Origin: Sulfurovum sp. 16-42-52
GTDB lineage: Bacteria > Campylobacterota > Campylobacteria > Campylobacterales > Sulfurovaceae
Assembly (NCBI GenBank): GCA_002281755.1
Contig: NCHB01000001.1
Location: forward strand, 1-64,000
DNA: 64,000 nucleotides
Direction of reading: 5' to 3'
Both the position numbers and the translations under genes were made by a program. The stretch's first letter is position 1. Every line of letters starts with the position of its first letter. Below, in pieces: positions 53 through 56,288 of the stretch. The notes beneath the pieces are model-generated. The model was not told where the DNA came from, searched no databases, and saw nothing but the letters and a program-made list of their open reading frames with translations.

Positions 53-2158
53 ATTTCGGTTTTATCGTGGTTAGGTGGGGTTAATCAGAGGGTTCTATTC
101 TTAGTACAAACGCTTCATGCAGAACGTGCAAAAGTAGATTTTTCACTGGTCATATCCGGTGGAGTAAGCCTTGGTGCCTATGAAGCGGGGTACAATTGGG
201 CTCTGATTAAAATGCTTGCCAAAGCAAAAGTAACCGATGCCATCATTGACCCCCAAATGCAGTCCGTAGCTGGGGCATCAGCTGGCTCTATCAATGCGTT
301 GCTTTCTGCGATGTACTGGTGCCAAAAAGATTCTGTGCCTTTACATAACAGCGTCGATGACAACTTATTCTACGAGACATGGGTTAACCTCGGTATAGAA
401 GATCTCGCCATACACGGGAAAGATCCTGAGAATAAAAGTTCACTTTTTATGCAGAAGGGGTTACAAAAAAAAGGTGACAGTATTATCGAGCATCTCCAAA
501 AGCCCATTTTCAAAAAAAATTGTGAAGTACCTTTAGGCATAGCCGTAACAAAAGTCACGCAGATTACCAAAACGATACAAGGTATCGATGTCAAAAATCA
601 AAATTTTTCTGTACCCCTTGTATTTAAAGAAAAAAATGGACAGGGCATTGTTGAAAACAAGACACTCCCACCCAGTACCAAATTTTATCTCTCTATACCG
701 GGTATAGAAAAAGACCGTAAGAAGGTCATCAATCTTCTTTTGGCTTCAGGTGCTTTCCCCGGTGCCTTTCAGCAAATTAAATTGGATTATCGTTATGAGG
801 GGGTAAACCGTTCAAATTATTTTATTGACGGGGGTCTGTACGACAATGTTCCCCTCGATCTTGCCATCGCACTCAATGACAACGCTACCCATTATTTTTT
901 TATGGATCCAAGTAACATGAGAAAAGAACCGGTTGATACGAACAAAGAAGAAAAAGAAGAAGCGTTGCCTGTTGGATTTATCTCTACCAACCTGATGCCT
1001 ATCTTTGATAGTTTTGGCATTATGCAGTCCATGAAGCTCTATGAAGCCATCAATCAACATTTTACCGGCAACAGTCAAAAGAAACTCATACTCTCATCCC
1101 GATACCATCCGCTTACAGGTAAATTTCTGGGACATTTTGGTGCATTTTTAGATCAAAATTTTCGGGTCTATGATTATTATATCGGGGTTTATGATGCCGT
1201 GTATCATCTAGCAGCCGGACTAAAAAGAAACTTTCCGCAAAGGTTTGAAAAGGTATCCCAGATCGACATTATGAATCGTTTAAAAACAGTGTTGGGTATT
1301 GATGAAAATCCTGAAGCATTGGCTGCCTATCAACTCCTTCTTGATACAGAATTTTATGACGCCAAACCAAAAACGACCGACCGTTTTTCTGCCATTTATA
1401 ATGCATTCAATACCCAAAAATCGGACAACGAACGCTACGACAATGATGAGTTTAAACTCTTTCTTTCAAAACTTGATATGCATTATCTTGAACTTCCTGA
1501 AAGATCTTTTGTACGTTATGCAAAAAAAGACATTGACAACTGGTATAAACTGCCTCTAAGGGTAATAATCAGCCGTATTACAACGTTGGAAAATGACAGA
1601 GCCGAAGTCGTCAAAGAAGGCAATTCTCTTGCAGCAGTAACCAGCCTGGGGGCATGGGCAGGAAACACTTTTATAAAAGACAAAGACGGTTTCAAACTGC
1701 TACCCTTGGATGTGCCTCAAGATGAAGGCAAGGAGGGTCTGAGAATGGCGTTAAGACTTCTGCCAGGAGAGATAGCTACTGATCTCTTAAACGGCGGTGC
1801 AAGTTTTGGATATACGGGTATCTTTTATGGCGACATGGGTCTTATCAACGGCTTTGAAGCAAAAGCAGCCTATGTCGTAAGTGACAAAACAAATAATTTT
1901 GTACGTGTAGATATGGATGCTTTTAAAGAGTTTGATGATCTTTTCAAATTTGGTGCAGGTGTCAGTGCATTTGGAGATATGGAAAGCACTTTTTACCAAC
2001 AAGACACAGCGTATGGCGCCAATGCCTATGTGGACATTGTTGATATCTTTAGACTCAGCTATGTCTACAGACATGGCAGCAGTGTGGAGACGGAGAACAA
2101 CTATCTTTACTTTGGGATTGAAAATATCCCTGCGCTGATTTATTGGCTTAGTCGATAA
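53..2158 (+). CDS. Patatin-like phospholipase, start unresolved
   Basis: Predicted acyl hydrolase of the patatin family, probably exported. The glycine-rich oxyanion loop (SGGVSLGAYEAG, bases 155-190) is followed by the nucleophile elbow GASAGS (Ser codon at 278-280) and the catalytic Asp of IDGGLYDN (827-829), so the Ser-Asp dyad is intact. The roughly 250 C-terminal residues look beta-rich and may sit in or near the outer membrane. The frame is open from 53, after a stop at 50-52, but has no ATG, GTG or TTG before 212; a start at 212 would remove the oxyanion loop. The residues just before it (RVLFLVQTLHAERAKVD) read like the end of a signal peptide cut after LHA. The 5' end may be broken, or use a rare codon such as ATT at 53. 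The family call is firm; start and activity are uncertain. Confidence 0.75.
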   Translation: MSVLSWLGGVNQRVLFLVQTLHAERAKVDFSLVISGGVSLGAYEAGYNWALIKMLAKAKVTDAIIDPQMQSVAGASAGSINALLSAMYWCQKDSVPLHNSVDDNLFYETWVNLGIEDLAIHGKDPENKSSLFMQKGLQKKGDSIIEHLQKPIFKKNCEVPLGIAVTKVTQITKTIQGIDVKNQNFSVPLVFKEKNGQGIVENKTLPPSTKFYLSIPGIEKDRKKVINLLLASGAFPGAFQQIKLDYRYEGVNRSNYFIDGGLYDNVPLDLAIALNDNATHYFFMDPSNMRKEPVDTNKEEKEEALPVGFISTNLMPIFDSFGIMQSMKLYEAINQHFTGNSQKKLILSSRYHPLTGKFLGHFGAFLDQNFRVYDYYIGVYDAVYHLAAGLKRNFPQRFEKVSQIDIMNRLKTVLGIDENPEALAAYQLLLDTEFYDAKPKTTDRFSAIYNAFNTQKSDNERYDNDEFKLFLSKLDMHYLELPERSFVRYAKKDIDNWYKLPLRVIISRITTLENDRAEVVKEGNSLAAVTSLGAWAGNTFIKDKDGFKLLPLDVPQDEGKEGLRMALRLLPGEIATDLLNGGASFGYTGIFYGDMGLINGFEAKAAYVVSDKTNNFVRVDMDAFKEFDDLFKFGAGVSAFGDMESTFYQQDTAYGANAYVDIVDIFRLSYVYRHGSSVETENNYLYFGIENIPALIYWLSR

Positions 2159-25195: not shown

Positions 25196-25705
25196 CTAGA
25201 CAGCCGGCAAGACATAATCTGGTACAGATTCTTCATCCAATTCAAGATCATGAATAGATTGAGGCAAGAGGAACCTTGCATCAACGGGCTGTTCATATTT
25301 TTTTGTAATTATAGTCTTTTTTTCCTTGATAAAATAGAGATTTCCCACCGCCTTGATAGGAGCGCCTCCATTTAATGCAAAACCGCTGCACCCTACGCAC
25401 TTGATGCCATAGAGTATTTCGATGCTCTTCAGCATAATGTAGGTCAGTTTTATCGCCATGTATGACCCCGGACCTCTAGTGTAAATGATTCGGCAGACAG
25501 CATACCGCTTCAGGCACGCTTGCAGTAAAGGCAAAAGAGCTTCGGAGGTTTTATGCTCAGACATCAAAGTTTCGATCAAAAGACCCTCTTCATAGACCCC
25601 TATAAGTAGAGGTGATGCAATGGGAATGACAAGAAGGTCATATGATTTAGGCAAAGCTTTTTGCAAACACTCTACTTTGTAATTCTTCCACCGCAACAAA
25701 ATCAT
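25196..25705 (-). CDS. tsaB: Divergent TsaB-like protein (t6A tRNA modification)
   Basis: 169-residue protein of the ASKHA fold, probably the TsaB partner of TsaD for threonylcarbamoyl-adenosine synthesis on tRNA. The supporting motif is IIYTRGPGSYMAIKLTYIMLK, aligning with the TsaB GPGSFTGLR loop, and KTSEALLPLLQACLK before it. It is short, and the GPGSYMAIK loop departs from the usual Thr-Gly. An ATG at 25705 would overlap lpxC by 59 nt; TTG codons at 25666 or 25654 are other options. The position between lpxC and thrB is conserved in the phylum. Confidence 0.7.
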   Translation of the reverse strand: MILLRWKNYKVECLQKALPKSYDLLVIPIASPLLIGVYEEGLLIETLMSEHKTSEALLPLLQACLKRYAVCRIIYTRGPGSYMAIKLTYIMLKSIEILYGIKCVGCSGFALNGGAPIKAVGNLYFIKEKKTIITKKYEQPVDARFLLPQSIHDLELDEESVPDYVLPAV

Positions 25706-26531
25706 AATTTTTGCTATCTGAAAGCAATTTAGTCGTAAGCTGATAATTTAATGCATGACTTCCTGCAAAGGATTCGTATTTGCCAAGGATGTTATATCCT
25801 GTCACCATCATATCACCCATGGCATCGAGTATTTTGTGCCTTGCAAACTCATTTTCAAAACGCAGACCTTCTGGATTGAGCACTTTATAGTCATCTAACC
25901 CGATGGCATTTTGCAGCGTTGCACCCAAGGCGAGATTTTGACTTTGTAAATACTGAATATCTTTGGCAAATCCAAATGTCCTTGCCCGTGCAATCTCTTC
26001 GATGAAGTTTTTGGTACTAAAGGCAAACGATTCTGACTGATCACCGATGACAGGGTGATCAAACTTGACACGAAAGTCAAACTGTGCCGTATCATGAGGC
26101 GATAGACGTACAAATTTCTCTCCATCCTGAACCTCCACTGTTTGTTTGATGCACAGAATTTTCTTCACCGCATCCTGTTCTTGAATACCTGCTTCATCCA
26201 ACAACAAACAAAAGGAAATGGATGATCCATCCATGATCGGCATTTCATTTCCATTGACTATCACCCGCATATTGTCTATACCGTAGGCATACACGGCGGA
26301 GAGAAAATGCTCTATCGTGGAGATAAATCCTTTTTCGTTTCCTATGACGGTAGCCATACGTGTATCTATCACCGAATCAGGGGAAAGGGGTATACTCATT
26401 GCCAAATCTTCACGGTAAAAGAGGATGCCTGCATCTGCTGGAAGTGGCTCAAGTCTTAACTTGATAGGCTCACCCTTATGCAAGCCAATGCCGACAACTT
26501 CAACAGGTTTTTTCAGTGTTCTTTGCTGCAT
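25647..26531 (-). CDS. lpxC: UDP-3-O-acyl-N-acetylglucosamine deacetylase
   Basis: Zinc enzyme of the committed step of lipid A synthesis. 294 residues. Zinc ligands are visible as STIEHFLSAVYAYGIDN (His of the EHxxSAL-like motif, about residue 78) and RHKILDAMGDMMVTG near 230, with His and Asp; GSSISF and MPIMDGSS mark the first domain. The ATG at 26531 has a perfect AAAGGAGG site 6 nt upstream. Its 3' end overlaps the tsaB-like frame. Confidence 0.96.
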   Translation of the reverse strand: MQQRTLKKPVEVVGIGLHKGEPIKLRLEPLPADAGILFYREDLAMSIPLSPDSVIDTRMATVIGNEKGFISTIEHFLSAVYAYGIDNMRVIVNGNEMPIMDGSSISFCLLLDEAGIQEQDAVKKILCIKQTVEVQDGEKFVRLSPHDTAQFDFRVKFDHPVIGDQSESFAFSTKNFIEEIARARTFGFAKDIQYLQSQNLALGATLQNAIGLDDYKVLNPEGLRFENEFARHKILDAMGDMMVTGYNILGKYESFAGSHALNYQLTTKLLSDSKNYDFVAVEELQSRVFAKSFA

Positions 26532-26624
26532 TGCTTCCTCCTTTAACATATTTTTTTTTGACTATTATAGTCAGAATTTATCCCAATCGCAAAGCATAGC
26601 GCTTGACTGTGTAGAATTTGTGAA

Positions 26625-54512: not shown

Positions 54513-56288
54513 GTGTCATTAGCCTTAGCAAGAAAATACCGCCCTGCCACCTTTGATGATCTCATCGGGCAAGAAGCCGTTTCACAGACACTCTCTATGG
54601 CTCTAGAAGGCAAGAGACTCTCACACGCTTATCTGTTTTCAGGACTAAGAGGAAGTGGTAAAACCTCTACAGCGCGTATCTTCGCTAAAGCCCTACTGTG
54701 TGAAAAAGGAACCAGTTCACATCCTTGCGGCATCTGTGTACACTGCACCATGGCTTCAGAAAACAGCCATATGGATATCATCGAAATGGATGCGGCAAGC
54801 AACCGCGGTATCGATGACATCAAAGATCTCATCGAACATACCAAGTACAAACCCTCTTTGGCGCGGTATAAAATCTTCATTATCGATGAAGTTCACATGT
54901 TAACCCCGCAGGCATTTAATGCTTTACTTAAGACCCTTGAAGAGCCGCCGGATTTTGTCAAGTTTATCTTGGCAACGACCGATCCGCTCAAACTACCCGC
55001 TACCATTTTGTCGCGTACACAGCATTTTCGGTTCAAAAAGATTCCCCAACCACTCGTACTGAAGCACTTGGAGCACATCTTAGATCTTGAAAATGTAGGG
55101 TATGAAAGAGAAGCGCTTGATATCATCGCCCGTTCAGGTGCAGGGAGTCTCAGGGACTCTCTTACGCTCTTAGACCAAGCCATCGTGTACTCAAAAAACT
55201 TTGTGGATGTAGGTACGGTCACTTCCATGCTTGGTATCATAGAACCTGGACGTCTTGAAACTTTGTTGCAGGACATTATGCACAAAAATACCGCCCAACT
55301 GCTCTCCTTCATCAAAATGGCAACAGACTATGAAGCGGAGATGATACTCGATGAGTTTACCCTTTATCTTAAAGAGTTGCTTTTAGACGAAAAAAGCCCA
55401 TTTTCTCCTATGATTATAGAGCGTTTTTTCAGGGTGCTTGCCGAGTCCAAATCACTCCTTGCTCTTGGTAGTGACGGCGAATTTGTACTCTCTTTGTCAC
55501 TCTTCAAGATGATGGAAGCCTTGGAAATCAAAGACATCGATACCATGATACGCGGTTTAGAACAGGAACTAAAAGGTGTAGAAGTCTCCGAAATCATCGT
55601 AACAACGCAAAATACACCCGTTTACGAAGAGGTCACCGTCATCACCGAAGAGGACATTATTGCCACACTGCCTGTACAAAAACAGCATAAAGCATCTCTT
55701 TCCAAAGAAGCACAAGAAGTCCAAACAGACTCTGGCTCTATCCCCGAAGTGGCTCAAGTACCTACAACCCCTGTGCCACCACCACAAACCCAGCACAATC
55801 ATTTACCCCAAAACAAACTGTTTGAAAAGCTTGTTGCAAAACTCTATGACCGAGACTATGAACTGGGTGCCTGTTTTGAACGCAACATACTCTTTGAAAA
55901 TTTTATGGATAACGAGCTAACATGGGGTTCTATGGCTGAGGATGAGGATAAAAAGATGCTCATCACACACTGGGGACTGATCAGCCATTTTGTTCAAGAT
56001 GTTTTTGGTGTAGGTACCAAGATTATCAACATCACTAAAAAAAAAGTTGACACCCCTCCTAGCATAGAAAAAGAGACGGAAGTAGAGCAGGCTTTAGTAC
56101 ATGAAGATGCTGATGCCGCATCGATGATAGAAGAGATCGAAATGAAAAGCTCCTGTATCGCTCCTGATGCAGGAGAGACTGAAGCAGCAAAAGAAAAAGA
56201 CCCTTCAAGCTTGTTTGAAGAGCCGATGATCAAAGAAGCCATTGCACTCTTTGACCCCAAAAAAGTCCGTATCAAGCGCAACGCGTAA
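54513..56288 (+). CDS. dnaX: DNA polymerase III subunit gamma/tau
   Basis: Clamp-loader ATPase, 591 residues. Walker A FSGLRGSGKTSTARIFAKAL (about 43-62), zinc ligands CEKGTSSHPCGICVHC (about 65-80), Walker B IIDEVHMLTPQAF, sensor 1 LATTDPLKLPATILSR and the domain III collar follow. The C-terminal third (from about 370) is a divergent linker plus tau-type tail. GTG start with AAGGAA 8 nt upstream. An A9 run at 56037-56045 (codons 509-511) could produce a shortened gamma form by slippage. Confidence 0.95.
   Translation: MSLALARKYRPATFDDLIGQEAVSQTLSMALEGKRLSHAYLFSGLRGSGKTSTARIFAKALLCEKGTSSHPCGICVHCTMASENSHMDIIEMDAASNRGIDDIKDLIEHTKYKPSLARYKIFIIDEVHMLTPQAFNALLKTLEEPPDFVKFILATTDPLKLPATILSRTQHFRFKKIPQPLVLKHLEHILDLENVGYEREALDIIARSGAGSLRDSLTLLDQAIVYSKNFVDVGTVTSMLGIIEPGRLETLLQDIMHKNTAQLLSFIKMATDYEAEMILDEFTLYLKELLLDEKSPFSPMIIERFFRVLAESKSLLALGSDGEFVLSLSLFKMMEALEIKDIDTMIRGLEQELKGVEVSEIIVTTQNTPVYEEVTVITEEDIIATLPVQKQHKASLSKEAQEVQTDSGSIPEVAQVPTTPVPPPQTQHNHLPQNKLFEKLVAKLYDRDYELGACFERNILFENFMDNELTWGSMAEDEDKKMLITHWGLISHFVQDVFGVGTKIINITKKKVDTPPSIEKETEVEQALVHEDADAASMIEEIEMKSSCIAPDAGETEAAKEKDPSSLFEEPMIKEAIALFDPKKVRIKRNA

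Follow-up and report, generated by a model that had tools for sequence, protein, structure and literature searches.

The dnaX gene of Sulfurovum sp. 16-42-52 contains a run of nine A's that is very probably a programmed transcriptional slippage site, through which one gene would yield both tau and a shorter, gamma-like DnaX. This reading is drawn from comparison of orthologous sequences. In the proposed mechanism, RNA polymerase would slip on the nine A's and produce a mixture of dnaX mRNAs. Transcripts with 9 or 12 A's would be translated into full-length tau (591 or 592 aa); those with 8, 10, 11 and so on would reach a stop within a few codons and give a gamma-like protein of 511-518 aa. The short form would keep the clamp-loader ATPase domains and a domain-V-like fold and would be without the C-terminal tail.

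The A9 run of dnaX and the part of the protein beyond it

The window, meaning the whole 64,000-nucleotide stretch analysed, carries dnaX on its plus strand. The protein matches the NCBIfam model PRK08451 (DnaX gamma/tau) with 734.7 bits against a cut-off of 572, and the Pfam domains DNA_pol3_delta2 and DNAX_ATPase_lid are matched in the same product. The features are as follows (source in brackets).

54513..56288, plus strand: dnaX, DNA polymerase III gamma/tau; full-length product tau, 591 aa, GTG start (NCBIfam, Pfam)
55794..56036, plus strand: domain-V-like folded module, residues 428-508, predicted to be kept in the short form (AlphaFold2, Foldseek)
56037..56045, plus strand: candidate A9 slippage run, three AAA Lys codons 509-511 (window sequence; family conservation)
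56046..56285, plus strand: disordered linker and conserved C-terminal tail, residues 512-591, predicted to be lost in the short form (AlphaFold2, alignment)
56048..56050, plus strand: TGA stop that a transcript with one extra A (or a -1 ribosomal shift) would meet, product 512 aa (computed; family-wide closure of the frame)
56065..56067, plus strand: TAG stop that a transcript one A short would meet, product 517 aa (computed; family-wide closure of the frame)

The preliminary description had placed an A9 run at codons 509-511 of the 591-codon gene, with stops in both slipped frames, and the letters of the window bear this out. The context is ATC ACT AAA AAA AAA GTT GAC, in which the flanking ACT and GTT limit the run to exactly nine A's, and the slipped-frame stops come 1 and 7 codons past it. 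The computed A10 product has 512 aa and ends ...ITKKKS before TGA, which agrees with the Lys-Lys-Lys-Ser-stop given earlier. The computed A8 product has 517 aa and ends ...KKKLTPLLA before TAG; its length is as first described, but the stop lies just past position 56063, where the feature had been taken to end. The A7 and A11 variants are also truncated when computed (511 and 518 aa), and with 9 or 12 A's the reading frame stays open. A single A9 run is not remarkable by itself, and it is conservation that constitutes the evidence. The window contains two A9 runs against 4.8 expected from dinucleotide shuffles, and a pattern count over the genome gives 27 A9/T9 matches per 1.99 Mb. The only other A9 of the window (26551-26559, minus strand) is outside coding sequence, directly upstream of the start of ORF 25647-26549, which looks like lpxC.

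The run lies at a predicted domain boundary. An AlphaFold2 model of residues 428-591, made with 74 aligned relatives, contains an alpha/beta module at residues 428-508 (pLDDT about 95); the final beta strand of the module (503-508) extends up to the codon that immediately precedes the run. A disordered linker follows, and then helices at residues 564-569 and 571-580. When the module was compared with solved structures using Foldseek, the top match was DnaA domain I (E 6.5e-3) and the DciA KH-type domain ranked fourth (E 0.087); the 50 matches listed did not include E. coli tau domain V. A sequence search of the C-terminal part against the PDB gave no match, so it is from fold and position only that we infer the module to be the counterpart of tau domain V. 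The conserved tail, EPMIKEAIALFDPKKVRIKR, is likely the counterpart of the polymerase-alpha-binding tail of E. coli, by analogy with E. coli tau without its last 25 residues, which like gamma does not bind polymerase alpha and retains its clamp-loader ATPase (PMC11470591). A short form lacking this tail would be expected to load clamps but not to tether a polymerase. Loss of a C-terminal tau tail had been proposed before and still holds; the cut, however, follows the folded domain-V-like module and not domain III as in E. coli, so that the short form would lose the linker and the C-terminal tail only.

Two further features of this region were observed. Another conserved block, SMIEEIEMKSSCIAPDAGETEAAKEKDP, lies in the tail that the short form would lack (window 56100-56285, residues about 530-591); a cysteine in it is almost invariant. 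A linker repeat, CTTCGACAAGCTCAG / CTGAGCCTGTCGAA, occurs 6-35 codons past the run in L091, L092, L096, L099, L122, L131, L138, L147, L163 and other genes, sometimes as inverted pairs that would form hairpins.

Conserved run and two-frame stops in orthologous dnaX genes

Orthologues were collected by scanning public genomes, a scan that placed the window in Sulfurovum, and by searching genomes at three ranks: 78 in the genus, 120 in the family and 150 in the order. After alignment of the proteins, attention was given to the linker that joins the conserved TKI(I/V)N strand to the EPM(I/V)K tail. This linker contains an A9 or A10 run in 56/65 dnaX genes of the genus Sulfurovum; for ten further genera of the family the figure is 34/75 (33/51 without genus g8). 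In total, 90 of 140 distinct family genes carry the run in the homologous inter-domain linker, a count that overstates independence because the genes are related, though different genera, codon phases and positions agree. The preliminary description had asked whether the run is conserved in relatives and held that its absence from them would speak against a switch; it is kept. Its length in the family is nine in 58 genes and ten in 32, and never more. When synonymous codons were randomised with the protein held fixed, 41 genes with runs were expected and 92 were observed. Run-bearing genes have a higher GC content than run-less ones (0.440 versus 0.378, p 3e-7 with relatedness ignored), the opposite of what would be expected from drift in AT-rich genomes. 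They include genes of 59-63% GC, and at a GC content of at least 58% an A9 is found in 6/7 genes, one from genome G095. Nine of the 65 Sulfurovum-genus genes are without a run of at least nine, as are most genes of genera g3 and g11, and there the switch would be dispensable or made otherwise. In the DnaX tree, the contig-cut genes L117, L235 and L237 carry wrong labels and are uninformative on the run.

Stops were scored in the 92 run-bearing genes, comprising the 90 of the family and two of Sulfurimonas. Both slipped frames are closed within 5 codons in 65 of these, compared to 15 expected from synonymous randomisation and 9 from codon permutation; the largest values among 500 simulations were 24 (synonymous) and 17 (permuted). 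By this comparison of sequences, the conservation of run and stops in orthologues is far beyond chance. In a frequent context, AAAAAAAAAGTAGTTAA, one A fewer leads to a stop at once and one A more to a stop two codons on. Run-less genes served as control, and both frames were closed in 13/78 of them versus 11.5 expected. When the test site was slid along the gene, the value was 0.70 at the run and fell to about 0.1 at most positions beyond 12 codons from it. Runs in frame 2 have both frames closed within 5 codons in 11/12 cases. Immediate closure is weaker in genera g10 (2/8 within 5 codons, 5/8 within 10) and g4 (0/4 and 2/4, respectively). A need for stops in both frames points to a site at which bases would be either gained or lost, as happens in polymerase slippage. 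Baranov and colleagues considered an A9 conserved among homologues to be very likely purposeful slippage and truncating cases hard to judge comparatively (PMC1088944). The two-frame stop test applied to these sequences supplies a comparison for such truncating cases.

The same two-frame pattern bears on the possibility that the short form (KKKS-stop) is made by -1 ribosomal frameshifting on A_AAA_AAA, as in E. coli dnaX, which we regard as improbable. The run does contain A_AAA_AAA, a -1 shift in the window would lead straight to a stop, and tRNA-Lys(UUU) is the only tRNA-Lys among the tRNA genes read in the genome (most, not all, of 38). However, an SD-like sequence stands upstream of the run in just 6/90 genes and a downstream stem-loop is near background (mean z -0.53 across genes, +1.9 in the window), so that the SD and stem-loop of E. 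coli are absent here. A -1 shift would also need only seven A's and one closed frame, yet the genes retain 9-10 A's, and stops close the deletion frame to the same degree (within 3 codons in 57 genes versus 32 expected). On the SD, stem-loop and two-frame evidence together, -1 frameshifting was rejected as the main mechanism. Of the two precedents named for a gamma/tau switch in the preliminary description, the E. coli-type shift thereby finds no support, and the Thermus-type slippage, with its run and two-frame stops conserved, is supported.

Many Campylobacterota have phase-variable homopolymer tracts, and a run whose length changed during DNA replication could toggle tau between cells. All 90 family runs, however, are in frame for full-length tau, and phase variation was rejected on this count as very unlikely. 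The tau tail is moreover expected to be essential, from the E. coli dnaX I618X strain, which could not be made (PMC11470591).

If instead the lysines mattered to the protein, for example in DNA binding, the A run would be incidental; KKK is indeed common at the run position in genus g1. The choice among synonymous codons makes this scarcely credible, and it was rejected. Linker Lys triplets are AAA-AAA-AAA in 86/86 cases, compared to 1/13 elsewhere in the same genes, and the Lys codons within runs are AAA in 270/270 cases and AAG in none, compared to 75% AAA and 25% AAG elsewhere. An A10 occurs at another linker position and codon phase in L109, L110, L119, L150 and L151, where the usual KKK is absent. 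Where the run occupies a different codon phase (most of g2, L109, L110, L150, L151, L181), both frames are closed all the same, and the enrichment of stops is not explained by the protein sequence. Finally, chance or AT-richness, with hidden stops guarding against accidental slippage, has next to no likelihood: an A9 alone is not rare, but the genes richest in GC have the run most consistently, and were slippage only harmful a single synonymous AAG would abolish it, yet none does so.

A candidate +1 frameshift in a sister genus and signals beyond the family

The A-run switch is not universal in Campylobacterota. The linker run is absent from genus g8, where the low-GC exception L228 has an A9 late in the tail; at the position of the linker run, g8 has a candidate +1 ribosomal-frameshift signal. 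A junction motif, K-E/D-L-P/S-S/P/R, encoded by AAG GAG TTA CCC TCC or close to it, is present at the linker start (codons about 450-505) in 20/26 distinct g8 genes, among them L167, L169, L170, L172, L173, L177-L180, L182, L186, L187, L190, L196, L197, L199, L218 and L219. Its codons are nearly fixed, with AAG in 20/20 (5.1 expected), GAG in 17/17 (8.3), TTA in 17/20 (6.4) and CCC in 19/19 (3.1). The +1 frame reaches a stop within two codons after CCC in 17/20 genes versus 6.4 expected, and stops in the -1 frame are not enriched (0 versus 2.8 expected). The site has the geometry of prfB: an SD precedes a shift-prone codon by 3 nt, and a stop, confined to the +1 frame, follows soon after. For +1 frameshifting the SD is described as standing three bases ahead of the shift codon, and Listeria phage PSA cps shifts to +1 at CCC_UCC (PMC5009743). 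In the g8 genome G101, tRNA-Pro(UGG) is the only tRNA-Pro among the tRNAs read. In g8 dnaX, a candidate +1 ribosomal frameshift of the prfB kind apparently takes the place of the A run. Genus g8 is nested among run-bearing lineages in the DnaX tree, which suggests that frameshifting replaced slippage. Outside g8, an in-frame AAGGAN-NNN-CCC after codon 430 occurs in 8/238 genes, and a +1 stop follows within 4 codons in 8/8.

Two other arrangements were seen in g8. In L234 (genome G146), CCC TCC TAA closes the first ORF in the zero frame, near base 1895, and the rest of tau is encoded in the +1 frame; this split dnaX would be either an inverted layout or an assembly error. The low-GC genes L031/L228 and L040/L227 have an A9 at codon 375, just past clamp-loader domain III, with both-frame stops at 2 and 0 codons. 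This may be an alternative slippage site that would give a shorter, E. coli-like gamma.

Outside the family (72 genes, the two Sulfurimonas included), 15 runs of A9-A12 were found after codon 430, and both frames are closed within 5 codons in 10/15 versus 4.1 expected. In L281, which comes from f11, a different family of this order, the zero frame ends with A10 and then TAG (about bases 520-535, minus strand), and the tail is readable solely in the frame reached by one extra A. This suggests that L281 is an inverted slippage-type dnaX.

These comparisons make it probable that the cut of DnaX at the end of the domain-V-like fold is itself a selected trait, reached by interchangeable means: slippage on A9/A10 in most Sulfurovaceae genera; an SD-stimulated +1 shift at CCC_Y in g8, with scattered cases among Arcobacter, Sulfurimonas and Campylobacter relatives; and two-ORF genes of inverted layout, by slippage (L281) or a +1 shift (L234). 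A whole family appears to keep a dnaX recoding signature under selection, at a boundary that would remove the polymerase tether only. A sister genus seems to swap slippage for ribosomal frameshifting at the same spot, which argues that the product and not the mechanism is selected. The importance of the short clamp-loader form is a long-running question, and according to a 2012 review most bacteria are without dnaX frameshift signatures and may not make gamma (PMC3290774). A switch of this kind had been thought undescribed for Campylobacterota, in line with which we found no report of dnaX recoding for Sulfurovum or Epsilonproteobacteria in the open-access literature. A +1 ribosomal frameshift in dnaX would be new and is apparently undescribed.

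Comparison with known dnaX and frameshifting systems

The outcome predicted here, tau and a truncated DnaX from one gene, is shared with the -1 frameshift of E. coli dnaX. That system relies on an A_AAA_AAG heptamer together with a 3' stem-loop and an SD located 9-14 nt upstream, and its cut precedes domains IV-V; Sulfurovum shows none of these features, and its heptamer reads A_AAA_AAA. In Caulobacter, as cited in PMC5009743, gamma arises at the protein level by proteolysis of DnaX, without recoding. Chlorobium and others have two-ORF (inverted) dnaX genes with A7-A10 (Antonov 2013, PMC3711429). A poly-A frame transition is common to both, and L281 has the same layout, whereas in Sulfurovum tau is the zero-frame product. 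The g8 signal resembles the +1 frameshifts of prfB and Listeria phage PSA cps in its SD 3 nt before the shift codon and its CCC_UCC (PMC5009743). In contrast to these, it would make the short form, its A site is a sense codon, and the stop follows in the +1 frame.

Thermus thermophilus dnaX, as far as it is described in the sources drawn on (Larsen 2000; PMC1088944, PMC5009743), shares with Sulfurovum a single tau ORF, a late A9 and nearby stops in both other frames. The Thermus A9 leads to about 50% short product (PMC1088944), and gamma there comes from slipped transcripts; in Sulfurovum, slippage, its efficiency and the two resulting proteins are predicted from sequence. The Sulfurovum gene falls with the Thermus type in having at least nine A's inside the tau ORF, close stops in both frames and a run length conserved among orthologues. 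It differs in belonging to an unrelated phylum, in the conservation of the run across a whole family, and in a cut that maps to the end of a domain-V-like fold.
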